Source: Spinacia oleracea (lineage: Eukaryota > Streptophyta > Magnoliopsida > Caryophyllales > Amaranthaceae). Taken from it: DNA of 64,000 nt. The notes below the pieces were generated by a model. The model searched no databases. It worked only from the letters and a program-made list of their open reading frames with translations, and was not told the DNA's origin. The DNA lies in the NCBI RefSeq assembly GCF_020520425.1, contig NC_079488.1:88083285-88147284 (forward strand), read 5' to 3'. Positions 3,077 through 64,000 of this stretch are shown here, piece by piece; within the stretch, counting starts at the first letter, position 1, and the number at the start of each line of letters is the position of its first letter. A program made the position numbers and the translations under genes.

Positions 3077-3082
3077 AACATT

Positions 3083-6638: not shown

Positions 6639-7021
6639 TGATGAAATCGAACAAACAATGTGAACAAAGCTTGAGCAATACACAAACAATGGAGCTCATC
6701 AACTGTAAACTGAGTTGATGAGGAGAGAATAATTCTTTTATTACTAACTTGCTTAGAGTACAAGCTGATATTATGAAACGTAGTAAATAGAATAATGCTA
6801 AGGATAAAACTTATATAGTAGGAGCAATGATGTGCTGTCTCAACCAATCAGAAGAGAGGAGCTTGCTGACAACCAATCAGATATCAACTCACTAACAAAC
6901 AAACTGCCATGTCAGCATGTCAGTTATGGAATTCAGTTACAAGAGGAATCATCCTGTGTGTGCGTATGCATGACTGCTACTGTGTGGCATCTCTGGTGCA
7001 ACTATGTCATGCTGTCCAACA
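6639..7021 (-). repeat. 3' LTR of Copia copy B
   Basis: The LTR begins TGATGAAATCG and ends GTCCAACA on the + strand. On the element strand it runs TGTTGG...TTCATCA. A TATATAAG-type box lies near 6810-6817 on the minus strand. The C-terminal 24 or so codons of the polyprotein run into this LTR (stop at 6949). Confidence 0.97.
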
Positions 7022-11325: not shown

Positions 11326-11581
11326 TCTATTCTAGATAGAAATGCAGTAATGCAATAATTTGAGAGAGTAACCAGCAAAAGATTTCAATGAAACTTTCAA
11401 GAAGATTTCAGCAGAAACACAGAATTGGCAGAAGAAGTTCCTAATCAATCAGCAATTAGGAATACAGACAACAAAGAAGAAATGAGGATTAACAGACCTC
11501 AAAATCGAAGAACTCAGAATTTTGATTGAATTGTACCAACAGAATAGGAGAGAAAATCTGATCCAGGATCTTGATTCTACT

Positions 11582-11593
11582 GCTCTGATACCA
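11582..11593 (-). promoter_or_regulatory. Primer-binding site, initiator-Met tRNA type
   Basis: The minus strand reads TGGTATCAGAGC directly next to the 5' LTR. This is the standard plant Copia site complementary to the 3' end of initiator tRNA-Met. Confidence 0.95.
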
Positions 11594-11976
11594 TGATGAA
11601 ATCGAACAAACAATGTGAACAAAGCTTGAGCAATACACAAACAATGGAGCTCATCAACTGTAAACTGAGTTGATGAGGAGAGAATAATTCTTTTATTACT
11701 AACTTGCTTAGAGTACAAGCTGATATTATGAAACGTAGTAAATAGAATAATGCTAAGGATAAAACTTATATAGTAGGAGCAATGATGTGCTGTCTCAACC
11801 AATCAGAAGAGAGGAGCTTGCTGACAACCAATCAGATATCAACTCACTAACAAACAAACTGCCATGTCAGCATGTCAGTTATGGAATTCAGTTACAAGAG
11901 GAATCATCCTGTGTGTGCGTATGCATGACTGCTACTGTGTGGCATCTCTAGTGCAACTATGTCATGCTGTCCAACA
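11594..11976 (-). repeat. 5' LTR of Copia copy B
   Basis: This is the same 383 bases as the left LTR with one substitution. It should drive transcription leftward through gag and pol. Confidence 0.97.
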
Positions 11977-19344: not shown

Positions 19345-19467
19345 ACGCATAACTTATTTTACCTATATATGTTCCCTCTAGGGTTTCTCTCTTGGGAGGG
19401 TTTTTTGCTCTAGTTTCATACTAGCCCTAATCTTCTTAACTCGAAGCGTTGTTGACCTGGTTCGATT

Positions 19468-20814
19468 ATGGCGGACGATGATAGGGATACTTTACCACTG
19501 CAGAATGAGGAGAAGGAGGTTATCTGGGAAGAGGAAGGAGATGAGGAGGAGGAAGCGAAGATAAGCTTAGGGGTTGTGGGGAAGCTTTGGACAGAAAGGA
19601 ATGTAAACGCAAATGCGCTGATAGGTACTATGAAACGGATATGGAACCCGAAGCACGGATTGGAAGAAAATTGCATAGAAAAGAATTTGTTTTTCTTTCA
19701 ATTCTACCATTGGAGAGACAAGGCGTTTGTCATGGACTCTCAGCCATGGCACTTCGATCATCATGCCCTAATTCTAGCTGACATTACGGATACTGCTCGT
19801 CCATCAGAATTACCTCTGCATCAAGTACCGTTCTGGATTAGGGTTTATGATCTACCGTTACGAGGGAGGAACAATGAAAATAATGCTAGGGCTATCGGTG
19901 AAAAATTAGGCACGTACATCAAGATGGACAAGTCGGATGTAATTGGTATCAATAAGTCTCTAAGGATCAGAGTCCTAATTGACGCACGGAAGGAACTACC
20001 ACGTTCGGTGAAATTAAAACTGAGAGGTGGGTTGGTTCAGGAGCTCCCAATCAAACTGGAGAAACTACCAGTTTTTTGCTATGTGTGTGGCAAGTTGGGT
20101 CATGGAGACAAAGACTGTGAAGCCAATATGGGGGAGGTTGAAGCGGAACGACGTTTTAACGAGACACTCCGAGCATCTCCTTGGAAAGTCAATAGAGGGG
20201 ACGAGATGTCGGCGGACAAAAGAGTCCAGTGTGCTCGCTCATTATTTGTTACAAAGAAGAAGCCTAATCCCAGTCCAGTATTGGTGGAGAACATTACAGA
20301 GGTAGTAGAAAAGTTGCAAGATGTGTCCTTGTCTTTGAACTCTGTAAAAAATGGGGCAGACGCTACGGAAGGGGTGGTTCCTCAAACAGGCAGTGAGAGC
20401 CAACAACCAGTAATAACCCCACTCTCACTATTGGAGGACTCTCCGAGGAGGAAGGTGATAGGAAGGGAGGGAGTGGAAAAGGCAGGGCAAACGGAACATT
20501 CTAAAGAGGCAGAGGTGGAGTGCTACACAAGGTTAGTGGAACCAATACCGGGGGTGCCCTTAACTTTCTCCGCGGGCGTGGGAAATTCCACGAAAAAAGG
20601 ACGGTGCTGGAAAAGAATGGCGCGAGATAGTCAACCTTCGGGGGGGAGTACCTGTGCTAGGGTGGAGCAAAAGCGTAATAGAGAGGTGGAGGCGATGGTA
20701 ATTGATCAGCTTGACGGGTCTGACGGGAAACGAAGTAAAGTAGTTTTCTCCCCAAACCTTGTTACTGAAGGTCCGGCGGAGGTTGACGGTTGTCAGCCCC
20801 GCCAAGACCAATGA
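19468..20814 (+). CDS. LINE ORF1: DUF4283 / CCHC zinc-knuckle protein
   Basis: The intact 448-aa frame starts with an acidic N-terminus (EEKEVIWEEEGDEEEE). It is followed by a DUF4283-type fold (about residues 35-150, with WHFDHHALILAD and VPFWIRVYDLPL) and a CCHC knuckle CYVCGKLGHGDKDC near residues 204-217. The C-terminal half is low-complexity and charged. In plant L1 elements this protein binds the element RNA. The stop codon TGA (20812-20814) overlaps the ORF2 start. Confidence 0.9.
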   Translation: MADDDRDTLPLQNEEKEVIWEEEGDEEEEAKISLGVVGKLWTERNVNANALIGTMKRIWNPKHGLEENCIEKNLFFFQFYHWRDKAFVMDSQPWHFDHHALILADITDTARPSELPLHQVPFWIRVYDLPLRGRNNENNARAIGEKLGTYIKMDKSDVIGINKSLRIRVLIDARKELPRSVKLKLRGGLVQELPIKLEKLPVFCYVCGKLGHGDKDCEANMGEVEAERRFNETLRASPWKVNRGDEMSADKRVQCARSLFVTKKKPNPSPVLVENITEVVEKLQDVSLSLNSVKNGADATEGVVPQTGSESQQPVITPLSLLEDSPRRKVIGREGVEKAGQTEHSKEAEVECYTRLVEPIPGVPLTFSAGVGNSTKKGRCWKRMARDSQPSGGSTCARVEQKRNREVEAMVIDQLDGSDGKRSKVVFSPNLVTEGPAEVDGCQPRQDQ

Positions 20815-21320
20815 GTTACTTATTTTGGAACTGTCGGGGGATCGGCAACCCCTGGACAGTTCGCCAACTCCGTCGCTGGAGTAGTTCGTATGCCGTGGAT
20901 ATGGTTTTCTTATCGGAAACCATGATAAGTAAACAAGATGTTGAAGGTTTACGTAGCAGGTTGGGGTTCTCGAATTGTTTTGGTGTTTCTAGTAGAGGCA
21001 AAGAAGGGGGTCTGGCACTTTTCTGGAAGGCTGATAAGGTCTCCTTTACTTTGGTCTCGTATTCTCAACACCATATATGTGGAGATGTCAATGAGGGAGA
21101 TAGTAGTTGGAGATTTGTTGGAGTGTATGGGTGGCCGGATGGAGCGAGTAAGTACAAAACATGGAACTTACTACGGTATTTATGCGAGGACGCTGTTGTC
21201 CCAATTATGTTAGGAGGAGATTTTAATGAGATTTTAGGCTATGAGGAAAAGGAGGGGGTGCAGACACGGACCGAAGGGAGATCAACCAATTTCGTGAGGC
21301 AGTGGACGAATGTGGGCTAA
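20811..21320 (+). CDS. LINE ORF2 N-terminus: AP-type endonuclease (frameshifted at the end)
   Basis: The most likely start is ATG 20811-20813, which overlaps the ORF1 stop as ATGA. The protein begins MSYLFWNCRGIGNP, the usual endonuclease start with the catalytic Asn. MVFLSET, WRFVGVYGWPDG and GGDFNEIL (catalytic Asp-Asn) follow. The frame runs out at 21320. A one-base loss in the G run near 21253-21258 explains why the following FREAVDECGL-type sequence lies in another frame. Confidence 0.88.
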   Translation: MSYLFWNCRGIGNPWTVRQLRRWSSSYAVDMVFLSETMISKQDVEGLRSRLGFSNCFGVSSRGKEGGLALFWKADKVSFTLVSYSQHHICGDVNEGDSSWRFVGVYGWPDGASKYKTWNLLRYLCEDAVVPIMLGGDFNEILGYEEKEGVQTRTEGRSTNFVRQWTNVG

Positions 21321-23830
21321 GGGAGATGGAGTTTGAAGGTACTTGGTATACTTGGGAACGAGGCTTAACCCCGGAATCTCGGGTGCGTGAGCGGCTTGAC
21401 CGAGTTTTAGCATCCCCATCTTGGTACTCCCTATTTCCTAGTAAGGGGGTGGAGCATTTATTGCGTTACAAATCAGACCATGCGGCATTGTTGGTACGTG
21501 CAAAAACCTCTGGTAGACAAAAGAAGAGGAAGAATAAAGGCAAGGGGTACAAATTTGAAACAAGTTGGCTACTAGATGATGAGTGTGAGCTAGTGGTTAA
21601 GGGGGCATGGGATAGGGCGGTAGGGGAGCCAGTAGAACGTAAGCTGGCTGCAGTGGCTAGTAGTCTGTTAGGGTGGAGTGGGACGAGGTTCGAAGGGATT
21701 GGGAAGAAGATCAGTGATACAGAAAAAGCTCCAAAAGCAGTACAACAATTACCCGTAACCCCAGTTACTTGTGAGGAAGCAGCTACTCTTGAAAAAACTC
21801 TTGACGACCTCAATGCCAAGCATGAAGCCTACTGGTATCTTCGATCCCGAGTCTCTGAGGTAAAAGATGGAGATAGAAACACAAAGTATTTCCACCATAA
21901 GGCTTCACAAAGAAAACGTCGTAATACCATTACGGGACTTACGGACAAGAGAGGAGTGTGGCAAGAGGATGAAGACAGAGTGGAGGAGATAGTGGTTGAT
22001 TACTACAAAGAGCTGTTATGTTCCTCGAATCCGTCAGCAGCAAACCTCAATGAGGTTTTACAGTATGTGCCAAACGTCATATCCATGGAGAACAATATGG
22101 AGCTTCTAAAGCCCTTTACTAAGGAGGAAGTTTATTATGCCTTACAACAAACGCACCCATGTAAGGCCCCTGGACCAGACGGTATGCATGCTATTTTCTA
22201 TCAGCGTTTCTGGCATATTATTGGAGATGATGTTTTTATGTATGTTAGTTATATCTTGCATGGGGGACCCTTCCCTAGCCTGGTTAATAAGACTAATGTG
22301 GCACTGATCCCTAAAGTTAAATCTCCAAAAATGATTTCTGAGTTTAGGTCGATTAGCCTCTGTAATGTTTTGTATAAATTAGCTTCTAAAGCCATTGTCC
22401 TTAGATTAAAGTCTATCCTCCCGAATATTATTACAGAGAATCAAAGTGCTTTTGTGCCAGGGAGACTGATTACAGATAATGCACTCATTGCCCTAGAGCT
22501 ATTTCATTCTATGAAAAAGAGGTGCAAGGGTCGGAAGGGATACATTGCAATGAAGTTGGACATGAGTAAGGCCTATGATCGTGTGGAATGGGGCTTCCTA
22601 AGAAAACTAATGCTTACTGTGGGGTTCGATGGTCGATGGGTTAATTTGGTCATGGACTGTGTCACTTCGGTATCTTATTCTTTCATAATCAATGGTGGAG
22701 TCTGTGGGTCGGTTGTTCCAACAAGAGGTCTCCGCCAAGGGGATCCTCTCTCACCTTTCTTGTTTATTTTGGTGGCAGATGCTTTTTCTCGTATGTTGCA
22801 GAATAAGGTACAGGAAAGGAAGATACATGGAGTTAAGGCTAGCCGTAATGGACCCGAAATATCACATCTCCTCTTTGCTGATGATAGCCTTCTTTTTACA
22901 AGGGCTAACCGACAGGAATGCTCATTGATAGTTGATATACTCAACCAGTACGAAGCAGCATCCGGGCAGAAAATCAATTTCGAAAAGTCGAAAGTCTCTT
23001 TTAGTAGAGGGGTCAGTTCAGATCGCAAGGATGAGTTGTTGGGTCTCTTGAACATGTCGGAGGTCGACAGACATGTAAAATATCTTGGAATACCCACTAT
23101 TGCTGGAAGATCGAAGAAGGCAATCTTTGGTGCCCTACTTGACAGGATATGGAAGAAACTACAAGGGTGGAAGGAGAAACTACTCTCAAGAGAAGGGAAG
23201 GAGGTGCTTCTGAAATCAGTTATACAAGCCATTCCGACATATATTATGGGGGTGTACAAACTCCCGGTCTCAGTGATTAGTGACATCCACTCGGCTATGG
23301 CCCGTTTCTTTTGGGGATCGGAGGCAGAGAAGAGGAAAATCCACTGGCAAAGTTGGTCTGGAATGTGTGAACCAAAGTGTGTAGGGGGCATGGGATTCAA
23401 AGACTTATCGGTGTTCAACGATGCACTAATTGGTAAGCAAGCTTGGAGGCTAGTTAGGGGTGATGGAACGCTACTGGGCAAGGTAATGAAAGCTAAATAT
23501 TACCCACATACTTCTTTTCTTGAGGCATCCCTAGGCTACGGAGGAAGTTACTCGTGGAGAAGTGTTCGAAGCGCTAAGGCTCTAGTCAAGGAGGGGGTAA
23601 TATGGAGCATTAGTAATGGGACAAACGTAAACCTATGGTCGGAGCCGTGGGTAGCTGATGAGGAAGGTAGGTTCATAACCACTGCACCTAGGGACGATAT
23701 CACACAGGTCAGCGATCTAATAAACCATGAGGCAGAAGGTTGGGACCTTGAACTAATTGAGGCGTGCTTCAATGACCGTGACAAAAAAATGTATTCTAGC
23801 CTTGCCTCTCAGCTGGAGAAGACCAGATGA
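21302..23830 (+). pseudogene. LINE ORF2 central part: end of endonuclease and reverse transcriptase
   Basis: This is an 842-codon open frame. The endonuclease C-terminus is seen as RLDRVLASPSWYSLFP and KSDHAALLV. The RT domain shows the HPCKAPGPDGMHAIFYQ motif, FRSISLCNVLYKLASKAI, GRLITDNALIALE, KLDMSKAYDRVEW, GLRQGDPLSPFLFIL and the catalytic box LLFADDSLLF. The thumb and WGSEAEKRKIHWQSW region follow. The frame breaks near 23815-23830. Confidence 0.9.
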
Positions 23831-24890
23831 TGAGCTCATGTGGGCATACTCGAAAGAGGGGAACTACTCTGTCAAAACAGCATACCTACTAGGTAAGGGT
23901 CTGAACTTAGAAGCAGTACATCAAGCTTGGGGGGTTAATCTGGGGGATGGAGGTATCGCCCAAAGTGAAACACTTCTTGTGGCGTCTTGGTACGAACACC
24001 TTGCCTGTCCGACAATTACTGCACACGAGACATCTTTTAGAAGACCCGATGTGTCCATGGTGCGGTCTTGAGGTGGAGAGCGTGGGACATGCCATTTTTG
24101 ATTGTGTTCGAGTTCGGGGGCCGTGGCTGAGTAGTGGGTGTGAGGGTCTAACACAATGGGGTGTCGCTGTATCTTTGTGTGAGTTCATTGCAAGCTGGGA
24201 TACTTTTGATGTTAAGCTCCAGCAACGTGCAGCTAGCCTGGCGTGGGTAATTTGGTGTGAACGTAACAGGTATGTGTTCGAAAATAAATCCACCCCGGAT
24301 GTTGTTCTCATCTCTCGTATGCAAAGACAGGGCGTCGAACAAGAGGAGTATTGCTCGCGTATTTATAAGAAGCCAAGTCTGGCTACTCAAAAAAGCCCAA
24401 ACAGGTGGTTGCCCCCCCTACTGGTGTAATAAAGATTAATATGGATGCCTCACTTGCGGTCAATGGATGGATTGGTATGGGAGTGGTTGCTAGAGACTCG
24501 AATGGAAGTGTCATATTTGCCTCATGTAGAAGAGTTCGAGCATATTGGCCGGTGGAAGTCGCTGAAGCAAAGGCAATTGCCAATGCAATTAAGTTGGGGC
24601 GCAGGTATGGGTTCACACACATCATCTTGGAGTCCGACTGCCAGTTCCTGATTTCCCGTCTATCGAAGGGCGCTATTTTCTTCTCTGATCTTGACTCAAT
24701 TTTGGAAGATATTATGTCTTTTAGCTCATGTTTTAGCTCTATTGTTTGGTCGCATGTTCGTAGGGATAGCAATGATGTAGCCCATCACCTAGCGAGACTA
24801 GTTCCTTTTGGTATTAAACAGATTTGGGAAAATCATTGCCCTTCGGAGATTTCTCCGTATGTACTGATGGACATTTTGTCCCTTGATTAA
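23815..24890 (+). pseudogene. LINE ORF2 C-terminus: zf-RVT and RNase H
   Basis: Three overlapping frames carry the C-terminal domains. About 23815-23935 has the DDELMWAYSKEGNYSVKTAY segment. 23947-24400 has the zf-RVT region (VKHFLWRLGTNTLPVR, CPWCGLEVESVGHAIFDC). 24405-24890 has an RNase H-like domain (IKINMDASLAVNG, VAEAKAIANAIKLG, ILESDCQFLI, RRDSNDVAHHLARL), ending at TAA 24888-24890. At least two more frameshifts, near 23930 and 24400, separate them. A C-terminal RNase H is common in plant L1-type elements. Confidence 0.85.
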
Positions 24891-42787: not shown

Positions 42788-43861
42788 TGGGTAGGGGTCG
42801 GGTAGAATTAGCCTAATCACCACGCCGATCGGCTACTCCGGCGATACAGCTCTCTAATTTCTAGATAAACACCACTAGGAAGTAGTAGAGAAGGGAACCT
42901 TGGATACAGTAACACCACCAAGGGGAAGGGAGATTATACTCAACCTAAACAACACTCAAAGTGTTAAATATATTTCTCATACAAAGGCTTGTGTTCAGCC
43001 GATTACAACCATGGCTATTTATAGCCTTAATTCAAGTACTATTACAACTACATAATTAATGCATTCAAATGTAAATGATACAAAAGTCAGCATTATTGGG
43101 CTAAGAGGTGAAGTTTTCTACGGTTGCAGACTTAGGGTGGCAATAGAGGTGGCTATAGGGGGTGGCAGTAGAGTGGTGCATCTTGTCAAATATTGTGTTC
43201 TCATGTAGGACTTTGTCAAACTCCCCCTGTTGGAGAAGACTCGACCTCGAGTCTTTGCTCTTCCTCATCTTCATAATATGGGGACAAATCAGCAACATTG
43301 AAAGTAGCAGAAACGTTATATTCCCCTGGAAGCTCAATCTTTATGCCTTTTCTCCAATCCTCTTTAGAACTTTGAAAGGTCCATCGACCCTTGGCTTCAG
43401 CTTACCATGTGTCCCTCGTGGGAACCTTTCTTTCCTTAAGTGAATCCAAACCATATCTCCTTCTTTAAAAGTGGCCGGTTTGCGAAATTTATTCGCTTGT
43501 TCTTGGTAACGTTGATTTTTCCGTGTGATCTGAGCTCGAACTTTCTCATGAAGCTTCTTGATTTCTCTAGCTCGTTCATCAGCATCGCCACTAAAGTTGT
43601 TAGGAGAAGGTAGTGGAGCAAGATCAATCGGTATGGTCGGATTTTTACCATAAACGATCTTGAACGGGCTTTCACTAGTAGTTTGACTTGGAGAACAATT
43701 ATAGGCAAATTCTACTTGAGTTATCATCAAATCCCATTGTCGAAGGTTTTTATCCACAAGACTTCTCAACATGCTTCCAAGAGTCCTGTTGACAACTTCG
43801 GTTTGACCATCAGTTTGAGGATGCGACGCAGAGCTGAATTGCAACCGCGTTCCCAATTTGC
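42788..43861 (-). mobile_element. Ty3/gypsy relic, 3' LTR and integrase C-terminus
   Basis: The minus strand carries the end of a gypsy pol. It is followed by an AGGGGGAG polypurine tract (about 43219-43227) and a TG...CA-bounded segment 42788-43218 that is probably the 3' LTR; its minus strand has a GGCTATAAATAGCC box near 43015. The rest of the element is separated by the large insertion at 43862 and is expected beyond the window. Confidence 0.75.
43228..43861 (-). pseudogene. Gypsy integrase C-terminal part (interrupted)
   Basis: It reads SSASHPQTDGQTEVVNRTLG, WDLMITQVEFAYN, SPFKIVYGKNPTIP and the C-terminal integrase segment GDMVWIHLRKERFP, then KLKPRVDGPFKVLK. A frameshift near 43341-43345 precedes the tail (YNVSATFNVADLSPYY, DEEEQRLEVE). 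The N-terminal side stops abruptly at 43861, where the large Copia-derived element begins; upstream integrase sequence is absent from this window. Confidence 0.85.
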
Positions 43862-44179
43862 TGAAGGAAATAATGCCTTTGGTCCAAGTATGCATTCAAT
43901 GTTAAGTCTAATAAATGCGGTTCAGTATTAATTAACAAGTTAATAATTCAGTGAGATCAAGTGAGTTGAATGCCTAGCTAGAGGCCGCTTCAGTTCAGGT
44001 GGAATTAATGATATTAATCCACAGCTTACTCTTGACTGAACCCGTAGGGTCACACAAATAGTACGTAAACGGATCAAGTATTTAATGGCATTAAATACTC
44101 CATCTATGGATATTCGGAATCGACGGATCTTGGTTTCAGTGGGAGCTGAGATCGTAACAGGCAAGAAATGAATACTCCG

Positions 44180-44490
44180 GAAACGATGATATTGCCGGAA
44201 ACGGAAATATGGATCGTATCGGAAATATAAATATTATCCAAGTCGTAGATGTTGCCGGAAACGGAAACATGGTACGTATCGGAAAATATTATCGGAAATG
44301 GAAATATTGCCGGAATCGGAAATATTGCCGGAAACGGAAATATTGTCAGAATCGGAAATATTATCGGAATCGGAAAATAATTCCGGAAACGGAAATATTA
44401 AATATTTGTTCGAAACGGAAATTGATTCCGGAATCGGAAATATTAAATATTGTTCGTATCGGAAATGAATTCCGGAATCGGGAATTTAAT
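44180..44490 (+). repeat. Degenerate CGGAAATATT tandem array in the LTR
   Basis: About twenty imperfect units of CGGAAATATTRYCGGAA type are arranged head to tail in the U3 portion, upstream of the TATA box. The same array is present in the 3' LTR (63059-63369). Open frames through it are compositional artefacts. Confidence 0.9.
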
Positions 44491-44884
44491 CGGAAGCGTA
44501 TCGTACGAATTAGCATCGGACGAGGCCTGCTAGACGAAGGCCCAGCACGAAGCCAGGCCATCGCCCAGCGAGCCAACACGCACCATCGCGTGCCAAAGCC
44601 TCGACCAGGCCCAGCGCAAGGCCAGGCCCAGCCAAGGCCTGGGGCGCGCGCGCGAGAGCACAGCAGCAGTGGGCCGAGCGCTGTGCGCCTAGCGTGGGCC
44701 GCAAGGCTTGCGCGGGTGTACGGTGCTAGTGCAATGCTTGTGCGGGAATCCTAAAGCAATCGGGATTCGAAATATGATTAAATCCTAAAACTATTAGATA
44801 ATGATTATTTAATTAGAGTCCTAGTAGGGTTATAATTAAATAAATTAGTATCCTAATAGGTTTCCAAATCCTTTTCCATAACTC

Positions 44885-44892
44885 TATAAATA
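44885..44892 (+). promoter_or_regulatory. LTR TATA box
   Basis: TATAAATA sits in the 5' LTR about 360 bases before its end. It is conserved in the 3' LTR at 63764-63771. Confidence 0.75.
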
Positions 44893-45246
44893 GGTGCCTA
44901 GGGTCACATATTTACAACGAGTTTTCAAGTATTCAAAGTGAGTTTTTGAGAGAAAAATTCAGTCACACATTTGCCTAAAAGTGCCGAAAATAATAGTACC
45001 TTAAGGGCGATTCTAGTTGGTCAATCTTAAGGCGGATCCGGACGTGCTGTGGACTATCTACGGAGGGACGACACTTGGAGTCCTAAAGACTTGTTCTTGT
45101 TCGGTTCGGGCGCAGCTAGGGAAGGCACGCAACAAAGAGTATGCATCTAAACTATGCTAAATGATTATGTGTAAATAATATGTTTTCCTGGCTTTATGGT
45201 TTTTCCGCATGATTTATGAATTGTCATATGTATCATAACCTGACAG

Positions 45247-50476: not shown

Positions 50477-52675
50477 CAATTGGATGACAAAACATCTTCC
50501 TCAGTCAAATGTTGGAAGAAACTATGTACATGGTATGTCATAGGATTTGTGGATCCAAATAAATGCTTGAAAAGAATAGCTAGCTTATGAAATCTAAGTA
50601 CAGATTTAAGCAAGCAATTGGGAATTAGAAATGTATTTTAGTGAAGCTAATAAGTATTTTAGTTTCATAAAATGTACATGATTCTTATAGATATATAAGA
50701 AGTTTAGTGGGAGTACATAAAACTTAATTGGTCCTATGTGTATCACACACATATCTCTCTATTGTGAAATAACATTCAAATGCTAAATACTTAGATTTGA
50801 GATTATTCCTCAATGATGGACCAAGGCGAAACTTAGTACATACTGGGTACTAAGATCTATTTACAAAGATCTTATAATATTGTTTTGGATTAAGTAATGG
50901 CATTTACTAAATCAAACACGAAATACTCCATTGGAGATATTCGACCCATGTGAATAAATCTAAGTAAAAGAATGTTTGAACTATGTATAAGCATTTACTA
51001 AGTTAACATCAAAGAATCTAATGAGATTCTTCACCTATATTATATGTCAAAGAATTTAGCTGGATTCAGTATCTACTGAAACTGAATGAGCTAAAGTTAC
51101 ATGAATAGAATTCAATTGGGAATTATTCTGCAAAAGAATTTATCATGTATGATATAATATGAGGATCGCCAAAAACGTACCGTATGACTTTAGGCATGAC
51201 GAACATATACCAATCTCTATTGATCTAAGTGAAGACCAATTAGATTGAGATCAAGAATACTTATGGTACTTGAAAAGGTACATAGGAATAGTTCTTGATT
51301 CAAGGAAATAAAGATATGCTAAATATTGATGCTACACGCATAAACACTGGCAAAGGATCAAGCAAGACCCTTTGGAGTTAACCATTGATAAGGACGAGCT
51401 ATAGAGCATCGTGTTTTGAAATGGCAACATGGATTGGAGACCATGAGTTGTTGCGTGGGATATTGAAATATTAATTTCTATGTTCTAAGATACAGCTGGA
51501 AAGTATTCCACATATCTTTGAACTGCTTGGATAAGTAATTCCAAACAAAGCATCACTAGCAACCTATAAAGTTGAAGTAAAAGTACTTATTGCCTAAGAA
51601 GCAATAAAATAGAGTTGTTTATATGAGTTCTTCATTGAACTTGGGAAGATCACATGTCTGTTGACTTAATGGTTCTTCATTGCAAAATGCGTAGAACCAC
51701 TAATGTAGCAAGAAAGACTAGATCACAAAATAAACATACTCAAAAGTTCTTATCATCATATCTCGAAGAACATTCGATGAAAAGGATATTAAGATTGGCA
51801 AAGCATGATAACTAAACCTATGCAACAAGTGAGAAGCAACACTCACATTGTAGCACTGGAAATCAAGCATAGCTTTGAATTCCATGAACTGTTTTAAAGA
51901 TGGGTTTGAGGCCCATGGTTGTAAAACAATGGGGTTGAACATTTATCATATATGAAATGTATTTTCATATTCCATTTAATCTTGGTTTAGTATTAAATGA
52001 TGAGTCCCTTCAATTTGACGATATATTCAAGATAGACTGTCAGGACCAGTCCTGTGACTAAGAAATGTCTATCAAGTGAACTTGAATGTCAAAGGTTGAA
52101 AATGGTCCCTAGTCGGAGTTTTCTATAAAATTGGACGCATAGAAAACGTTAGACGACTAGAATGCAAGATGACTAGTAGTTCTATTTCTTGAACTATGTG
52201 GACATGGCAATGTCATAATCATTTGCATATATACTTACTTTGGGAACACTAGTATCGGACAAGACCTATGAAACTTTACTGTAAGAGATGAAAATCTGTC
52301 ATAAGTAAATTTCATTAAAATTATTAGACACTAAATCCTCAATACCTGAGTGATTTGAGATTACTTGTTTGAGAACTGGTTGCTTTGACGCTGACCAACC
52401 GTCGCACCGTAAAAGGAGGCTATAAAGGCAACGCTCAGGTAATCACCTATCAAACGAAGTCTAATCTCAAGATCGCAAGATTGGGATTGTCCTCCCATAA
52501 ATCGGGATGAGATGCTTAAAAGTTGTACAAGGCCACTCGGAGAGCTAGAAACTGTGAAATGCATGGCCGTGCTTGGATGAATCATAGGCTATGATTATCT
52601 GTTTATTTGATCAGTTGAACTATGAAACCGAGAAACACCTCTGGACATAATAAGGATGACAACTCTTACCTTATG
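50477..52675 (+). other. Decayed Copia RT/RNase H region
   Basis: The sequence is full of stops in all frames but is collinear in place with the Copia RT and RNase H region. It ends at the target site TTATG (52671-52675) of the inner gypsy element. Confidence 0.5.
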
Positions 52676-55409
52676 TGTAACACCCCGACAATTCCCTTTT
52701 TCTAAAACAACCCTTTTATAAATATAACTATAGAGAATTATCAAGGCATTATCGCCCGTGTGGAAACGTACGGCTTATTCAGAATTTTGCAGCGGAAAAC
52801 ATAAAACTAACTTTTAGGTTCATAAATAATTGATTACATATTAAGTCCAAAACCAATTAACGGAAATAAAGAAATACGAATAGTACGACGACTTTCAAAT
52901 ATAAGTTAACAAATTAAATCACTTAATTAAACAAATAGAACTATAAGCTCTCTAATCCCGATCCCAATGATGCATCATCTTCAAACCTGTAGATGGGCAA
53001 CGCTTATTGATCCTTAGAGACTGCTCACCAAAGATGGGTCATCACAGGATCAATAGGCATAGCCATGATCAACACACACAAACAAGGCACGTAATCAGCA
53101 AAGCTGAGTACTACATACTAAAGCAATAATAATCCTAACATGATACTATTAAACATAATTAAGGGCAGACAAAGCATGATAACCTGACGACCATACTTAA
53201 CTAGACTAAGCTAGACTTGACTAGACTTTTATAACAATAATATTAATTTAATTGAAATAGGCAATGGACCGAGTTTTCTAGCTAGGCGAGGTACGGGCGC
53301 GACTCCGTAACCTCAGTGACCTGCGATATCGAGGAACGTTTGACTGAAAATAGGACGCGGTGATCAATCCGGTCCGAATGAAAGGCCATGGGCTACCACC
53401 ATGAACCCCAACTCCTGTTTGTCCGTCACTTTAGACGTGCACAGTCTAGAGCTATTGCTACTCAGTTTCACTTTACATGATTTACAAATTGACACCCTGT
53501 TATGACTCAACAATCACATAAGGCATGCAACTCACATTTATTTATAACTGTTTTTATCTTGGAATTGAGTAAGTGATCACAAAGGCCTCAAACAAGACTC
53601 ATTCCAATTAACTCCAATCTTTTCTTTAATACTGATCAACCCCTGAATATGGGTATAAGGTTTCAACTTACTAAATGAGGTCCTCCGCCCTCATAAAGTA
53701 GTGAAAAGCTAAAAAGGGAACAACAATTAACTGATCTGAATTATATACTAAATAATCTAGTGTTCCCAATAAAACATGTTTGCATCAATCTTCCATACTA
53801 ACATGTTATAATCCTCAAAATGCAATAAAGGTTTAATATGTTCATCCAACAGTATCAAACATGCAATTTCAACCTGACTAAGTTCATCCACAACATTAAC
53901 ATAACCAAGTTCATCAATAATTCAACATGGTTTCAACAATTAGCACACATTCCAAGCACACAGGTATGTACGTACCTTGTGTAAACAAACTGCAAGACCA
54001 CTTTAATAATTCAAAAGTCGCCTACGGAGAATTCTCCACCTAACAACAACCAATATAGACTCATATCAATTCATATTGAATTTTCAGCAACATTAGGGAG
54101 CTTCAAACCCTTCCTAAACATAATTAGAACATTTCCCAATATCGAAACTTGAATATTTGATTTCCTAGCATCATAATTTTTATATTAATTATTGAAATTC
54201 GTTGAAAACTCTTCAAAGCATCATACTTTAAATTTCCAGCAATATAACTACTTTCAAACTACTCCAAAACATAATTAACATGTTTGAAATCATAATAACA
54301 ATAACTTTAATAATTCCTAAACATCCTACCATGATTTAAATCATTAAAAACCTTAAAATTCATACTTTAAATAATTAAAAATCAATATTTCAATGCATTT
54401 ATATAATCTGAAATTAATAATTTAATTATGCAAACATATAATTCTTGAAATTCATAGTCAAATCATAAAACTTATAATTTAAATTCAAGAAACATAATTA
54501 AATCATTAAAACGTAATTCAATTCATTAATTAGTTTAGGGTTTAAGAATTAACCAAAAAGAGAGACAAAAGGGTGGCTGGCCGGTGGTCTGAGACGGCGC
54601 CAGCAGAACAATCGGCAGCTGACAGGCAAGGCACGATGGTGGCGCAGCGGTGGCGGCTGCGACTGACTCGTGTTTGCGGGATATGAAGAACGAAAAGGAG
54701 TTCCGTCAAGCAAGAGGGAGAACAAGGGAGGACGTTGGTTGGTGTGGGCAAGGAACGCGGCGGCGCAGCGATGCAGGTTGGGCGGCGACGTGGCGGTGGT
54801 GCTGTTGGTGGCTGTCGCACGTAAAAAGAAAAGAAAAAGCAAGTAAGGAGAGCAAAACGCAAGAGAGAGAGGAAGAAAGAAATACGAGGGGAGAGAAGAG
54901 GTTACCGGCGACGATGGGTGGAAGTCGGGCGTCGGAGGAGAGCAACGGCGGCGGCTGCTGCTTGACCGGCGGCGGTGGTGGTTGCCTGAGAGGGAAGAAA
55001 AGAGAATTAACGTGAAAGAGAATGAGGGTTTCACGTGAGTGTGTGAAGTTGAGTGAGGAGAGAGAATTAGTTGTGGGTAAAATTTGGGTTTAGGGGGTTT
55101 ATTTACTTTGTGGGCTATAACAATTGGGCTAAGATTAAGATTCCTTTTCCAATTTGAGAGTATTTAAATTCAAACCCGATTAGAAATACTTTTCCAAAAC
55201 CGAAGTGTTTCTATGTTTCAATTCGTTTTCGAATTATGATTCTAAAGTGTTTGATTTCAATAAATCATTAAAATATTTATAATTCATTTAAATAAAATAA
55301 ATATACATTAAATATATATTTATTACTAAAATCGACCAATTTCATTTAAATATAAAAAACTATACGTTAACATATGTTAATAAACTTTATAAATTTACGG
55401 GGGATTACA
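52676..55409 (-). repeat. 3' LTR of the inner gypsy element
   Basis: It starts TGTAACACCCCGAC and ends GGGGGATTACA on the + strand. It includes a GC-rich, pyrimidine-rich (minus-strand) block at 54570-55040 that looks like a 5' UTR. The open frames there are the same in both LTRs and are probably not genes. Confidence 0.96.
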
Positions 55410-57317
55410 ATCTACCCCTCTTAAAAGAAGTTTCGTCCCGAAACTTGACATGAAAATTCCACATTTTTCAAAAGTTCTGAACTCATTCTTACTGGAGAAG
55501 TACTGGTTTCTCATGTGCACTCTTTAGCCAACTTAAAGTTGCTTGTGTTACTCATGAACAGATTTTCTTATGCGGCGAATCTATTTATTTTGCATCAACA
55601 TGTATAATTTGCTAAAATAAGCATTAAAAATGCATAAAAACACCATAAAATTAGGTAAAAAGCGCGAATTTATATCGCATTCTACCCCCTAAAAGAAAAC
55701 GAGTTACGCCCTCGTAACTCATGGATATTCCTAATTCAACGAATCCTTTTCCCAATACAACATTTTCACGGAAGTCATTCCAGTAAGTGGGATTTCTACA
55801 CTTCCATACTATGCCTCAAAAGGTTTCATCTTAATGTTCGCATGGTAGCTATTGTTGTAAGAAAATTCAATCAAATCTATGTGGTTCTCGACTACCATTA
55901 AAGTTAATACCACAGGCTCTCAACATATATTCCATAGTTTGGTTAGTCCTCTCAGGCTGACCATCAATTGCAGGGTGGAAAGCAGTACTCGTTTTCAATG
56001 TTGTCCCCAAGATTCAACTAGACTTTATTGCCAAAATTTCAGACTTTTGTGGTCGGAAAGGATCTCAAATGTTGCTCTATAAAGGTAATGTCTCCAAATA
56101 TTCGTAGATAACACCATAACAGCTAACTCTAGGTCATGGGTTTGGTAATTAGCCTTATAAGGTTTCAATTGACGCGACAAAAGCTAAATCTAAAAAGCTT
56201 CCTCACATTTCTCACTTCACTTGAATTTCGATTCCTTTTTCAACAAGTTGGTCAATGGTTTTTCTCTCTTCGAAAAGTCTTTCACAACATCCTATAATGG
56301 TCATCTAGGCCTAGAAAACTTTAGATACATACACGTTCTTGGAATAGGTCACTCACTCACCTCTCTAATCTTAGCAGGATCTACAGAGACTCCTTCTGGT
56401 CAACTTTTCCTTTTTACCAAACCTCATTATGCCTTTCATGGATATGTATAACTTTTGGGCACAACCCCTAGCTCTTTCACCAATTCATATATTTCTTTTC
56501 ATCTTTTTAAGATGCCAAATGATTTCTAACGATCCTGGACCACTCAAATCTTCTCTTAAATTTATTCCCTTAAGTAACGTAGTTTTCAATCAATTTAGTC
56601 CTTCACTATTCCGCCAGTGTCACTTATACCCACATGACTTCAAGATTTGTATACTTCATCCATATAAAACTAGATTCTTTCTAAGCGTCTCCAAAATAAC
56701 TCTCAAGTGTTTACCATGCTCTTTCTCATTCCTTGCTATACGGTGTTTCAGATATAGGTGTCGTTTCAGGATTTAACTCTATAGTGAACTCAAATGCTCT
56801 AGTTGGTGACATACTCGCAATTCCACTCGGAAACACATCAATGAATTCATTCACACTGGGAACATCCTCGATCTTCACTCCAACTTATTTACTCCCAACT
56901 AGCACACTACAGAAAAAATAGCTCACGCTCTCTATTCGTCCATTTCCTCACTCGCATTACAGAAATAACTAAAGGTTCTTGGACTTCTCAAAACATCTAC
57001 ATGAGGTCAATTTCCCAACAAGGTTCCTTAAAATTACTCTCTAAATTTCACAGTCTATCTTAGCCTTGGAAAAACTTAGTCAATCCGTCCCTGGAATTAC
57101 ATCTAGGTCCCTAAAATTAAACTTTTGTCCAATCAGAAGGGAAAACGCAATCTTTTGTCTTCAAAGGCAAGTTCTTAAATAATCTTATACACCTTATGGT
57201 TACCCCGGTGGGAATAATAACAGGTAAATGAAACATTCAAAATCTACTAATTTCAGACTTTTAATAACAAATGACAAAATGAAAGAATAAGTTGCTACCG
57301 AATCAAATAATGTTTAA
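55410..57317 (-). pseudogene. Degenerate gypsy pol of the inner element
   Basis: Short minus-strand traces of pol remain, for example an integrase-like stretch around 55885-55985 (FHPAIDGQPERTNQTMEYML-like). At under 2 kb the region is far too short for a full pol (usually above 3 kb), and all frames are broken. Protease, RT and integrase functions are lost. A polypurine tract (AAGAGGGGTAGA, about 55411-55421) is still present next to the 3' LTR. Confidence 0.75.
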
Positions 57318-58448
57318 CTAGCACAAAATTAATAAAAAAAAAAAGGTACCATGAACTACGTCTGCAGAACGTTCAGCTTCATTTCTAGTCATCATGAACG
57401 GTTTGCCCGGAGTCTTATTCTGGTTGTTGTTATCATTTGCAGGTTTATTATAGTTCTCTTGATTGTTTTGTGCCCCTCCAGGCTTTGAATTTTGACCTCC
57501 AGACTGGTTAAATCTCACTTGGTTCCCACCTCCATTACTATTTTGTTCCTTTCTGTGCTTAGTGAAGCACTCATACTCCCTATGCCCCCTTTTCTGACAA
57601 TAGTTGCAGGTCACTAATTCTCCTTTGCAATTCTTACCAGGGTGATTATTGTTGCACCTCTTGCAGTGATACATTCTCACGGATTGCCTCCTATTGTTGT
57701 GCCCCTGACTGTTTCCTCCTCGATAATTTCCATTTCCATTTCCATTCCTATTCTCATTCATATTCCTCTTGAAATTCCCTTGGTTTTCCCGGACATTAAA
57801 CACTTTTCTTTTCTTCCCAACAACGTTTTTCTCGTCCCTTAAGGACTGCAAACCATAAATATTAGCGGTTCCCTCATACACATTATCTAAAGATGTAAAG
57901 GTTTCTCCACCTAATCCCAACTGGATCTCATCGGTCGACCCTTGCTCAAACCTCTGAGCCTTTATCTCTTCTGTGGCTACAACCTCAGGTGCAAACTCCG
58001 ACAGCGCTATAAATTTGCTATAATATTCAGCCATGGTCATACTCCCCATCCCAAGGTTTATGAATTCCTGCGCTTTTCGTTTTGTTATGAAAGGAGGATA
58101 AAACTTTTCCCTCAACGCAACAACAAATGAGTCCCAATTAAATCCTTCAACAACACTTAGCCTAGTTCCATTCTCTTTCCACCATAGATCGGCCTCATCT
58201 TTTAGGTAAAGGACAGCTTGACCTATTTTCATATTTTCAGGACAGTTTACTACCCAAAATAGTTTTTCAAACTCCCTAATCCAGTTTTCTATGAAGGTCG
58301 GGTCTGCTTGCCCCTCGAAATATGGTGGCTTAAATTTCGCAAGCCTTTCAAACATGTCCCCTGCAGAATCGGGGAGCTCAGTTCTTTCCTGGGCTAGTTT
58401 TTCCGCCAAGAGGCGAAAAACAACAGCTAGGTCATTATTGTTGGTCAT
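57318..58448 (-). CDS. Gypsy gag protein with zinc knuckle
   Basis: A 376-codon open frame from ATG 58448. Residues about 30-190 form the gypsy capsid domain (FKPPYFEGQADPTFIENWI, VLYLKDEADLWWKEN, FYPPFITKRKAQEFINL, MTMAEYYSKFIALSEFAP). An Asn/Gly-rich linker follows, then CKRCNNNHPGKNC and the CCHC knuckle CNYCQKRGHREYEC. It ends in an artefactual tail just after a T run (57328-57350 region) at the gag/protease border. Beyond it a protease-like LFDSVATYSF is visible in another frame, with Val where the DSG glycine is expected. Confidence 0.88.
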   Translation of the reverse strand: MTNNNDLAVVFRLLAEKLAQERTELPDSAGDMFERLAKFKPPYFEGQADPTFIENWIREFEKLFWVVNCPENMKIGQAVLYLKDEADLWWKENGTRLSVVEGFNWDSFVVALREKFYPPFITKRKAQEFINLGMGSMTMAEYYSKFIALSEFAPEVVATEEIKAQRFEQGSTDEIQLGLGGETFTSLDNVYEGTANIYGLQSLRDEKNVVGKKRKVFNVRENQGNFKRNMNENRNGNGNGNYRGGNSQGHNNRRQSVRMYHCKRCNNNHPGKNCKGELVTCNYCQKRGHREYECFTKHRKEQNSNGGGNQVRFNQSGGQNSKPGGAQNNQENYNKPANDNNNQNKTPGKPFMMTRNEAERSADVVHGTFFFLLILC

Positions 58449-59931
58449 CCCAGAACGCGGCCTGAAATTAATATACTCTAATTCAGGTTCGAAACTTTAC
58501 TTATATTATCCTCTAGCAAGGTAATATCACACCAACATCCAAAATTCACGTAAAATAAACAAACATTTACGAATGTGCAACAATTATTTACGAAGGTAAT
58601 CCCCTCGATCATTTATGAATGATATTCACATACAGGGCATTCAACTGAGAAATAAGAAACACAGTCCAATCATCACGAATAACAAGGAAGCATAAAAGAA
58701 GAAAACATTCTCTTTGCGTGCCCAAAATAAACTCTTGATCCTTTGGATAATCAATGATCTAACTCTATTCCTCAAAAGAATGTTAATAACAATCCTAAAT
58801 ATCCACAACACACATGTCCTCAAAATAAAATTAAAAGTTCTATGACATAAACATAAACTATTGTTGGCGAATTATGGAATTCTCACATTGGAAACGAATG
58901 CCTTAACTTTTATTGCTAATTCTATAAAGGTTTAATACATCCTTGAAAAGAATAAAGAATAACTCAAACTCTTATTGCTTTAACTTTAAACTGTTGTAGC
59001 TTTGCTACTTATTCTCCAAAACATTTAAGAACAAACTAACTATTACAACTTCAAATGTTTAAGGCATCTTGTCTATCTGTTCTTTCTTTGGAAATTTGTG
59101 AAGTGAAATCTAGATCCTCAGTATTCGTCGATCTTCTCAAAGGATCCTATGTTGGTGTACTTGGAAAGAAGCGTTTTATTCATGAAACAAACAACTTAAG
59201 ATCTTACTAACGATTTCCCAACCAAAGCATAATCAGAATTCAATAAAACAATAAGTTTGGTGTAATCAAACAATTTTTATGCACATTTACATGCAACACT
59301 TAAACATTTAACATATGCACATAGCAATTAACTTCTTATGCTAGCAATTAACTACTAATGCACATATAATTCTATCCTATATGCCCTTTCCTATATTACT
59401 CATCTCTCATAATAAATCATAATAGGTCAAACATTGAAGAATTTAAAGAATAAAACAAGAACGATTAGTAAGAAAAAGTTTATTAAACGAATTAATAATA
59501 AACGAATAAATAAAATAAAGAAATTTTATTATTATTTTTATTTTCAAACGAATAATTAATAAGAAATTTTTTTTTTTTTATTAAACGAATAAATATTAAA
59601 CGAATAAATATACTTAAGGGATAAGATTTTTTTTTTTTCTTTTTTTTTTTTTTTTCCGAATATATTTAATTTAATTTCGAAAATAACGAAAAACGTACTT
59701 AATTCACATAAACGAAAAGTTTCGAATAAATAAGTTAATTCTGAACTTAAATAAGAAATATTATATACTTTCAAACAAGATAAAAGGAAATCGGCCCCCG
59801 AAAAAAAAAGTACCAATTTTTGAACACTATAATACGTAGAAGCTCGATTTTTAAGAAGTTTATTTTAAATAACTAGATAGTTAGGCGCCTAAAATTTTAT
59901 TAAAGTAAAACCTTAGCTTCTGACACCACTT
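58449..59931 (-). other. Leader of the inner gypsy element
   Basis: About 1.48 kb separate the primer site from gag. It is AT-rich with long T and A runs (59566-59580, 59626-59656). No coding signal was seen. Confidence 0.6.
59914..59930 (-). promoter_or_regulatory. Primer-binding site of the inner gypsy element
   Basis: The minus strand reads TGGTGTCAGAAGC a few bases inside the 5' LTR. It resembles other plant LTR-element primer sites, though I cannot assign the tRNA with certainty. Confidence 0.7.
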
Positions 59932-62665
59932 TGTAACACCCCGACAATTCCCTTTTTCTAAAACAACCCTTTTATAAATATAACTATAGAGAATTATCAA
60001 GGCATTATCGCCCGTGTGGAAACGTACGGCTTATTCAGAATTTTGCAGCGGAAAACATAAAACTAACTTTTAGGTTCATAAATAATTGATTACATATTAA
60101 GTCCAAAACCAATTAACGGAAATAAAGAAATACGAATAGTACGACGACTTTCAAATATAAGTTAACAAATTAAATCACTTAATTAAACAAATAGAACTAT
60201 AAGCTCTCTAATCCCGATCCCAATGATGCATCATCTTCAAACCTGTCGATGGGCAACGCTTATTGATCCTTAGAGACTGCTCACCAAAGATGGGTCATCA
60301 CAGGAACAATAGGCATAGCCATGATCAACACACACAAACAAGGCACGTAATCAGCAAAGCTGAGTACTACATACTAAAGCAATAATAATCCTAACATGAT
60401 ACTATTAAACATAATTAAGGGCAGACAAAGCATGATAACCTGACGACCATACTTAACTAGACTAAGCTAGACTTGACTAGACTTTTATAACAATAATATT
60501 AATTTAATTGAAATAGGCAATGGACCGAGTTTTCTAGCTAGGCGAGGTACGGGCGCGACTCCGTAACCTCAGTGACCTGCGATATCGAGGAACGTTTGAC
60601 TGAAAATAGGACGCGGTGATCAATCCGGTCCGAATGAAAGGCCATGGGCTACCACTATGAACCCCAACTCCTGTTTGTCCGTCACTTTAGACGTGCACAG
60701 TCTAGAGCTATTGCTACTCAGTTTCACTTTACATGATTTACAAATTGACACCCTGTTATGACTCAACAATCACATAAGGCATGCAACTCACATTTATTTA
60801 TAACTGTTTTTATCTTGGAATTGAGTAAGTGATCACAAAGGCCTCAAACAAGACTCATTCCAATTAACTCCAATCTTTTCTTTAATACTGATCAACCCCT
60901 GAATATGGGTATAAGGTTTCAACTTACTAAATGAGGTCCTCCGCCCTCATAAAGTAGTGAAAAGCTAAAAAGGGAACAACAATTAACTGATCTGAATTAT
61001 ATACTAAATAATCTAGTGTTCCCAATAAAACATGTTTGCATCAATCTTCCATACTAACATGTTATAATCCTCAAAATGCAATAAAGGTTTAATATGTTCA
61101 TCCAACAGTATCAAACATGCAATTTCAACCTGACTAAGTTCATCCACAACATTAACATAACCAAGTTCATCAATAATTCAACATGGTTTCAACAATTAGC
61201 ACACATTCCAAGCACACAGGTATGTACGTACCTTGTGTAAACAAACTGCAAGACCACTTTAATAATTCAAAAGTCGCCGACGGAGAATTCTCCACCTAAC
61301 AACAACCAATATAGACTCATATCAATTCATATTGAATTTTCAGCAACATTAGGGAGCTTCAAACCCTTCCTAAACATAATTAGAACATTTCCCAATATCG
61401 AAACTTGAATATTTGATTTCCTAGCATCATAATTTTTATATTAATTATTGAAATTCGTTGAAAACTCTTCAAAGCATCATACTTTAAATTTCCAGCAATA
61501 TAACTACTTTCAAACTACTCCAAAACATAATTAACATGTTTGAAATCATAATAACAATAACTTTAATAATTCCTAAACATCCTACCATGATTTAAATCAT
61601 TAAAAACCTTAAAATTCATACTTTAAATAATTAAAAATCAATATTTCAATGCATTTATATAATCTGAAATTAATAATTTAATTATGCAAACATATAATTC
61701 TTGAAATTCATAGTCAAATCATAAAACTTATAATTTAAATTCAAGAAACATAATTAAATCATTAAAACGTAATTCAATTCATTAATTAGTTTAGGGTTTA
61801 AGAATTAACCAAAAAGAGAGACAAAAGGGTGGCTGGCCGGTGGTCTGAGACGGCGCCAGCAGAACAATCGGCAGCTGACAGGCAAGGCACGATGGTGGCG
61901 CAGCGGTGGCGGCTGCGACTGACTCGTGTTTGCGGGATATGAAGAACGAAAAGGAGTTCCGTCAAGCAAGAGGGAGAACAAGGGAGGACGTTGGTTGGTG
62001 TGGGCAAGGAACGCGGCGGCGCAGCGATGCAGGTTGGGCGGCGACGTGGCGGTGGTGCTGTTGGTGGCTGTCGCACGTAAAAAGAAAAGAAAAAGCAAGT
62101 AAGGAGAGCAAAACGCAAGAGAGAGAGGAAGAAAGAAATACGAGGGGAGAGAAGAGGTTACCGGCGACGATGGGTGGAAGTCGGGCGTCGGAGGAGAGCA
62201 ACGGCGGCGGCTGCTGCTTGACCGGCGGCGGTGGTGGTTGCCTGAGAGGGAAGAAAAGAGAATTAACGTGAAAGAGAATGAGGGTTTCACGTGAGTGTGT
62301 GAAGTTGAGTGAGGAGAGAGAATTAGTTGTGGGTAAAATTTGGGTTTAGGGGGTTTATTTACTTTGTGGGCTATAACAATTGGGCTAAGATTAAGATTCC
62401 TTTTCCAATTTGAGAGTATTTAAATTCAAACCCGATTAGAAATACTTTTCCAAAACCGAAGTGTTTCTATGTTTCAATTCGTTTTCGAATTATGATTCTA
62501 AAGTGTTTGATTTCAATAAATCATTAAAATATTTATAATTCATTTAAATAAAATAAATATACATTAAATATATATTTATTACTAAAATCGACCAATTTCA
62601 TTTAAATATAAAAAACTATACGTTAACATATGTTAATAAACTTTATAAATTTACGGGGGATTACA
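59932..62665 (-). repeat. 5' LTR of the inner gypsy element
   Basis: It has the same 2734 bases as the left LTR with very few substitutions. Transcription would run leftward from here. Confidence 0.96.
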
Positions 62666-62740
62666 TTATGTTCAAGAGCAAGCATCGAGCGACAAAGGAA
62701 TTAGGAAATGCACACTTGTCCCTAAGGACAAGTGGGAGAC
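62666..62740 (+). other. 3' end of the outer element interior, with hairpin and polypurine tract
   Basis: TTATG (62666-62670) is the target duplication of the inner element. A perfect 8-bp hairpin ACTTGTCC-CTAA-GGACAAGT lies at 62714-62733, directly before GTGGGAGAC (62732-62740), the polypurine tract priming the outer 3' LTR. Confidence 0.8.
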
Positions 62741-64000
62741 TGAAGGAAATAATGCCCTTGGTCCAAGTATGCATTCAATGTTAAGTCTAATAAATGCGGT
62801 TCAGTATTAATTAACAAGTTAATAATTCAGTGAGATCAAGTGAGCTGAATGCCTAGCTAGAGGCCGCTTCAGTTCAGGTGGAATTAATGATATTAATCCA
62901 CAGCTTACTCTTGACTGAACCCGTAGGGTCACACAAATAGTACGTAAACGGATCAAGTATTTAATGGCATTAAATACTCCATCTATGGATATTCGGAATC
63001 GACGGATCTTGGTTTCAGTGGGAGCTGAGATCGTAACAGGCAAGAAATGAATACTCCGGAAACGATGATATTGCCGGAAACGGAAATATGGATCGTATCG
63101 GAAATATAAATATTATCCAAGTCGTAGATGTTGCCGGAAACGGAAACATGGTACGTATCGGAAAATATTATCGGAAATGGAAATATTGCCGGAATCGGAA
63201 ATATTGCCGGAAACGGAAATATTGTCAGAATCGGAAATATTATCGGAATCGGAAAATAATTCCGGAAACGGAAATATTAAATATTTGTTCGAAACGGAAA
63301 TTGATTCCGGAATCGGAAATATTAAATATTGTTCGTATCGGAAATGAATTCCGGAATCGGGAATTTAATCGGAAGCGTATCGTACGAATTAGCATCGGAC
63401 GAGGCCTGCTAGACGAAGGCCCAGCACGAAGCCAGGCCATCGCCCAGCGAGCCAACACGCACCATCGCGTGCCAAAGCCTCGACTAGGCCCAGCGCAAGG
63501 CCAGGCCCAGCCAAGACCTGGGGCGCGCGCGCGAGAGCACAGCAGCAGTGGGCCGAGCGCTGTGCGCCTAGCGTGGGCCGCAAGGCTTGCGCGGGTGTAC
63601 GGTGCTCGTGCAATGCTTGTGCGGGAATCCTAAAGCAATCGGGATTCGAAATATGATTAAATCCTAAAACTATTAGATAATGATTATTTAATTAGAGTCC
63701 TAGTAGGGTTATAATTAAATAAATTAGTATCCTAATAGGATTCCAAATCCTTTTCCATAACTCTATAAATAGGTGCCTAGGGTCATATATTTACAACGAG
63801 TTTTCAAGTATTCAAAGTGAGTTTTTGAGAGAAAAATTCAGTCACACATTTGCCTAAAAGTGCCGAAAATAATAGTACCTTAAGGGCGATTCTAGTTGGT
63901 CAATCTTAAGGCGGATCCGGACGTGCTGTGGACTATCTACGGAGGGACGACACTTGGAGTCCTAAAGACTTGTTCTTGTTCGGTTCGGGCGCAGCTAGGG
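62741..64000 (+). repeat. 3' LTR of the large Copia-derived element (cut by window end)
   Basis: The first 1260 bases of the LTR are present, aligned without gaps to 43862-45121 and with about seven substitutions. The TATA box is at 63764-63771. Confidence 0.95.

Follow-up and report, generated by a model that had tools for sequence, protein, structure and literature searches.

How does a retrotransposon with a dead pol come to stand in a genome as a fresh insertion, and why is its gag still open? This question is raised by a long terminal repeat (LTR) retrotransposon of the Ty3/gypsy type at positions 52676-62665 (minus strand) of a 64,000-nucleotide stretch of spinach DNA (C2:88083285-88147284; hereafter the window). 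A preliminary description had proposed that this element, with its near-identical LTRs and intact gag, moved by means of pol supplied in trans. We followed the element and its relatives by searches of the same genome, an assembly of 894,210,420 bases. The results make it likely that the element is a gag-bearing member of a non-autonomous Ty3/gypsy family that is mobilised in trans and recombines. Beyond the original proposal, the element reads as a mosaic of pol-dead relatives.

Results

The two LTRs of the element (5' LTR, 59932-62665; 3' LTR, 52676-55409; both minus) are each 2734 bp long and 99.85% identical, with 4 mismatches and no gaps, and the element is flanked on both sides by a perfect target site duplication (TSD), TTATG, at 52671-52675 and 62666-62670, as had been described. 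The internal region of 4522 bp begins with the primer binding site (PBS) region (59912-59931, minus), which starts with AAGTGGTGTCAGAAGC and adjoins the 5' LTR; we take it to resemble, imperfectly, the end of the initiator-methionine tRNA. The leader (58449-59931, minus) is followed by gag (57318-58448, minus), a frame of 376 residues with a capsid domain (Pfam Retrotrans_gag, E=1.4e-10) and two motifs that we recognised by eye as presumable zinc knuckles. Gag is the sole long open frame of the internal region. The pol remnant (55650-57344, minus) comprises about 1.7 kb of protease, reverse transcriptase (RT), RNaseH and integrase pieces with stops in all three frames, and the polypurine tract (PPT), AAGAGGGGTAGAT (55410-55422, minus), is the same in all 27 sequences read (L009-L034 and the window; the L-numbers name individual copies or lineages). 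Both LTRs also hold a proline/serine-rich frame of 161 residues on the sense strand (54549-55034 and 61805-62290), and LTR stretches of related lineages hold frames of similar look by eye; such LTR frames (106-161 residues) appear to be of low complexity and were excluded from the count of intact frames.

The lesions in pol are common to the family. In the window, the protease motif DSG reads DSV, visible as 'DSVATYSFI', and among six short pieces of the window pol compared with Pfam, the RNaseH piece found a match (PF17917, E=6.9e-12), while the other five had no Pfam match. A DNA search with 56000-57500 returned 45 matches in the same genome (best 40 of 1700 candidates scored), and 20 copies of the family were fetched. 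The junction at which RNaseH (..HKSLK) runs directly into integrase (FWQ..), at 56030-56045 (minus), is identical in 18 of 18 sequences aligned, window included. Intact relatives have an RNaseH that continues past this point, as well as the zinc domain and the core of integrase; compared with these, the junction has lost the end of RNaseH, the integrase zinc domain and the first part of the core. A protein search with gag found 109 relatives at 82-100% identity (best 109 of 6750 candidates scored) with open frames of 348-484 residues, so that not one of the 109 carries a complete pol in frame with gag. A broken pol beside an open gag was also found in all of six further lineages (L029-L034), whose gag is 85-99% identical to that of the window. 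These six keep a stretch of RT, about 430-475 bp long, that is missing from the window element at 56731-56735 (minus). Taken together, the short pol broken in every frame, the DSV protease, gag as the only open frame and the many copies with the same pol lesions are all as the preliminary description had stated or predicted.

The copies of this family are young. Eighteen of the 20 fetched copies gave an LTR pair, with 98.45-100% identity over the part covered (L015 and L025 had no pair over 800 bp; L012, L014 and L019 sit in arrays), and in 16 family copies, several with partial pairs, the LTR differences were 0-0.65%. At a rate of 7e-9 substitutions per site per year, the 16 pairs date to 0-465 thousand years and the window element to 105 thousand years. 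At 1.3e-8 per site per year (a rate given in PMC5818461), the corresponding ages are 0-251 and 56 thousand years. Perfect 5-bp TSDs, each different, were found in 15 of 16 copies checked, the lone exception (L014) being a member of a tandem array. A sister copy of the window element, L009, is 99.55% identical to it over 9.8 kb and has its own TSD, CTCCC. Young copies with different TSDs and a shared dead pol indicate transposition without a pol of their own; by their sequences, the insertions of the family are of recent date and arose independently of each other, through an integrase that the copies do not encode.

The copies often stand in rows, 7.2-8.2 kb apart, like tandem arrays that share LTRs (C4:162248755/162256215/162263676/162271135; C3:2411646/2418887, which are L014 and L015; C5:24025454/24033229; C1:128510836/128518887). 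Sharing of LTRs was read directly in L014, L015, L019 and a copy with an intact frame, and is deduced from the spacing elsewhere.

The internal region of the window element is a patchwork. In alignments of internal regions (excluding L015, whose internal region is cut), its divergence from copies L010-L022 is 0-2% at internal positions 401-1000, 5-15% at 1201-2600, 0-1% at 2601-3800 and 6-23% beyond. Within internal positions 2545-3863 (56069-57387 of the window, minus; 1313-1316 aligned bp), there are 3-12 differences from each of 12 L010-L022 copies, against 73-76 expected from the 246-256 differences in total, in a block that was picked after viewing the data; 200-bp intervals flanking the block are 5-23% different from the same 12 copies. 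Trees of 20 sequences conflict accordingly, since gag sets the window element and L009 apart (support 1.0), whereas the pol block places both inside the L010-L022 group (support 0.80-0.98).

When the best donors were sought in 200-bp steps among L010-L034, gag (internal positions about 1466-2415) matched L034 best at 99.5-100% DNA identity, pol (about 2666-3765) several of L010-L022 at 99.5-100%, and the 3' segment (about 3866-4215) L031 at 97-99%, and the start of the leader was closest to L024/L026 (98-99%, against at most 95.6% for others). Positions 151-750 of the LTR had no matching donor among L010-L034. The unique 3' (U3) part of the LTR (61900-62520, minus) is present twice at each of seven other loci at 96-98% identity, in sister L009, and once alone at C4:1140013 (best 40 of 350 candidates scored). 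At all seven loci with the doubled U3 the RT frame is just 122 residues long (best 150 of 9517 RT candidates scored); the case that would speak against the preliminary description, namely copies with the same LTRs and a full pol, was not seen among these candidates. Because the pol of L034 and L031 is broken and the L010-L022 block is the window's own broken pol, every resolved donor is pol-dead. Thus, the sequence comparison identifies the window element as a mosaic in which gag, the pol remnant and the 3' segment derive from three pol-dead copies or groups, and U3 from another.

Since L009 carries the same patchwork elsewhere, the patchwork predates transposition. Template switching between co-packaged RNAs would be the simplest route to such a mosaic. 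Ectopic gene conversion between genomic copies, acting on DNA, is a less likely route that we nevertheless take seriously: tandem arrays hint at DNA-level exchange in the family, and conversion in a mother copy would be compatible with a patchwork that is repeated at the site of L009, although that repetition, together with the involvement of several segments over the whole length, favors template switching.

The preliminary description had also predicted an autonomous partner with related LTR ends. A search with the protease family returned many frames of 1500-1575 residues (best 150 of 3765 candidates scored), and the intact families in this list were rejected as partner, as 12 of 13 had gag stretches only 35-45% identical to the window's and one (L062) had no gag. 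Because of this weak match in gag, a partner was sought with the RT piece kept in L029 (best 150 of 9517 candidates scored). Matches at 73% identity or above had frames of at most 197 residues, and the first intact frames, five of 1521-1527 residues, appeared at 69-71%; the same RT piece was 60-65% identical to four other families with an RVP_2 protease. The intact family of about 1525 residues was characterised from one copy, read in pieces. This copy has gag, an RVP_2 protease (E=2.5e-33), RT with FIDD, and an integrase with zinc domain and core (the match of the core being below the Pfam cut-off); by eye, it also has a chromodomain-like stretch, of which only the end remains in the window. 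By sequence, the pol remnants of the family are closest to single-frame gag-pol elements with an RVP_2 protease, i.e. to Ty3/gypsy elements of what we take to be the Tekay/Del chromovirus lineage. Tekay/Del elements are reported in a spinach repeat survey (PMC6337768).

The intact copy has the same PPT and LTR start as the window element. Its LTR is 81% identical to the window's over the first 160 bases and 97% over the last 234 bases, a part in which the 20 fetched family copies are 87-98% identical; outside the last 234 bases the identity is about 81%, and much of U3 is unalignable, in this one copy. Both PBS regions begin with AAGTGGT (window, TGGTGTCAGAAGC; intact copy, TGGTATTTTTGAGC). 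In gag, synonymous divergence (dS) does not exceed 0.33 among nine pol-dead sequences, whereas each of the nine lies 0.88-0.99 away from the intact copy; such distances speak against gag having been re-imported from the intact family in recent times. An LTR end that is 97% alike beside a gag dS of 0.93 suggests that LTR ends have been exchanged between the groups. The gag tree was rooted on the single intact copy, and its support for the gag clade was set aside.

Gag and pol have evolved differently in comparisons with the deepest lineage sampled, L032. The conserved part of gag stops near codon 368 (..SADVVHGT), a small correction to the 376 residues first described, and is followed by a T run of variable length and by final residues that vary between copies. 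Gag is open in 17 of 21 copies (the window and the 20 fetched), and a plasmid collection searched with the window gag gave no match. When eight sequences were compared with L032 (dS 0.26-0.33), the ratio of nonsynonymous to synonymous divergence (dN/dS) in gag was 0.23-0.30, with an excess of third-position changes. In-frame pieces of the pol remnant (267-354 codons) from the same pairs gave 0.57-0.97, the window itself 0.97 (one-sided Fisher p 3e-5 to 0.007 for the contrast). The expected difference, low dN/dS in gag and near-neutral values in pol, is therefore seen in the deepest pairs. At shallow distance, where this signal is weak, none of 71 changes in gag was a stop, against 4.0 expected (P=0.015), and the excess of synonymous changes had P=0.095. 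A single indel was found in 1103 bp of gag, versus 17 in 1080 bp of diverged flanking sequence from both sides. Taken at face value, a gag dS of 0.3 places the loss of pol 11-21 million years ago, a date that could be too high owing to retrotransposition errors or to spread of the deletion by recombination.

Discussion

We propose that the RNA of the window element would be transcribed from its own LTR, yield Gag and be packaged, and that RT and integrase would be supplied by an intact relative, most likely the gag-pol family of about 1525 residues with the shared PPT and LTR ends. If two different RNAs were packaged together, the borrowed enzyme could switch templates and produce patchwork copies. 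Selection would then keep gag and the cis signals, and pol would decay freely. Movement by pol supplied in trans, as first proposed, is thus supported, with the intact family as its putative source.

Several observations weigh against this explanation. Every contrast between gag and pol uses L032, so the pairs are not independent, and the 28 gag pairs that do not include L032 span dN/dS 0.25-0.89 and have no pol control. Between the window gag and eight nearer copies, dN/dS is 0.45-0.56, i.e. mild constraint, and the changes are spread evenly across codon positions because gag was exchanged as a block; on this ground we do not regard gag as tightly conserved between the window element and the group nearest to it. 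Close gag pairs in the main group, with few changes, scatter to dN/dS 2.9. Gag is broken in 4 of the 21 copies (L012, L016, L018 and L024). For the rest of the leader several groups lie within 1-2%, so that the donor is ambiguous. As for the partner, the gag of the intact copy is only 76% identical to the window's over 367 sites, its PBS is irregular, and its LTRs differ by about 0.65-0.7% (about 250-510 thousand years), a weak date as its 3' LTR continues into another internal region. A closer intact copy could lie beyond the best 150 of the 9517 candidates.

Part of this evidence would suit a pure passenger, in which gag is a leftover or a packaging signal and all proteins, Gag included, come from autonomous elements. 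Some of the broken gag frames are in young copies, constraint on gag is weak at shallow distance, and recombination with good copies could keep a frame open for a time. We consider such a passenger improbable in view of the low gag dN/dS and third-position excess in the L032 pairs, where pol is relaxed, the lack of stops in gag where four were expected, and the distance of this gag from that of the intact copy. It is very unlikely that the LTRs look young through gene conversion or unequal exchange rather than recent insertion: many copies are tandemly spaced, with arrays read in L014, L015 and L019, yet perfect and distinct TSDs mark all checked copies except one inside an array, and the sister copy is near-identical across the internal region as well. 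That an autonomous element inserted here recently and then lost pol alone, for which nothing speaks beyond the dead pol itself, can practically be dismissed: the LTRs are very young, as the preliminary description had argued, and the same lesions recur at other, independent sites, in L009 and at the RNaseH-integrase junction throughout the aligned copies.

If the family is indeed mobilised in trans, a further and tentative possibility is a self-renewing swarm, in which pol-dead elements have for millions of years swapped gag, 3' end, U3 and pol remnant by template switching, each supplying the others with Gag and perhaps trading it for the enzymes of the intact family. Selection would then act on gag and the cis signals as a common pool rather than on any single lineage.

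The window appears to contain other mobile elements. A direct repeat, 43861-45121 and 62740-64000 (99.4% identical), reaches the window edge and lies 74 bp from the gag element, which is therefore probably nested in another young LTR element. By eye, there are also a copia-like element at 6639-11976 (minus) with 383-bp repeats (99.7%) and a 1460-codon frame with one stop, a second copia-like frame at 1328-4243 (minus) with a single in-frame stop, and open frames resembling those of long interspersed nuclear elements at 19456-24887 (plus), the longest of 861 codons.

Gag-only non-autonomous elements are already known. TR-GAG elements (Chaparro et al. 2015, as cited in PMC8704663) are described there as having two LTRs and gag as the sole open frame, and one of them, AT5TE33540, transposed in Arabidopsis ddm1 (PMC8704663). 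The window element is like them in its LTR pair, TSD, PBS region, PPT and gag as the only intact frame; unlike them, it keeps a 1.7-kb pol remnant with a recognisable RNaseH piece and is a mosaic. The operational rule of Inpactor (PMC6022998) assigns an element to TR-GAG when GAG, alone or with protease, is all that a domain scan detects; the RNaseH piece of the window element, though broken, scores above the Pfam cut-off.

In wheat, PMC11302176 describes RLG_Quinta as non-autonomous with an intact gag, its partner RLG_Cereba being recognised by PBS, PPT and LTR ends, and ascribes a swap of gag between lineages to template switching. The spinach family shares with this pair non-autonomy, an intact gag, a putative partner indicated by PPT and LTR ends, and recombination. 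Quinta differs in being centromere-specific, with a frame of gag plus an unknown domain and without RT or integrase coding sequence, whereas in spinach the copies are dispersed and still carry a pol remnant in decay. The semi-autonomous RLG_Sabrina_SA and RLG_WHAM, with gag or gag-protease, are paired with the intact RLG_Wilma by LTR ends and PBS in PMC9744471, where LTRs are proposed to have been transferred by gene conversion or template switching. The spinach family likewise has its LTR termini and PPT in common with an intact family, but while Sabrina and WHAM have hardly any homology to their partner, the spinach element is 76% alike in gag and 97% at the LTR end. Non-autonomous Athila elements of Arabidopsis (PMC2410132) are gag-only families under purifying selection that have multiplied for up to 2 million years, with new lineages arising by recombination; the spinach family is alike in its gag-only copies, in signs of selection on gag and in recombination. 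Athila belongs to another lineage, often has env, and some of its recombinant parents had pol, whereas the spinach donors examined were all pol-dead.

In a narrow literature search, none of the titles and opening lines of abstracts listed describes this spinach family. Whether the Gag of gag-only elements is used, and how such elements persist, is an open question in the field. Here, within a single assembled genome, young copies are numerous, several lineages stand beside an intact relative whose ends match, and the recombination blocks are sharp. Selection on the gag of elements unable to move alone, and the rebuilding of pol-dead elements from each other, have thereby become testable. The spinach family joins the known cases of TR-GAG, Quinta/Cereba, Sabrina/Wilma and Athila; to the preliminary description, the present results add the contrast in selection between gag and pol, the patchwork built from donors with a dead pol, and the intact relative whose LTR ends match those of the window element.

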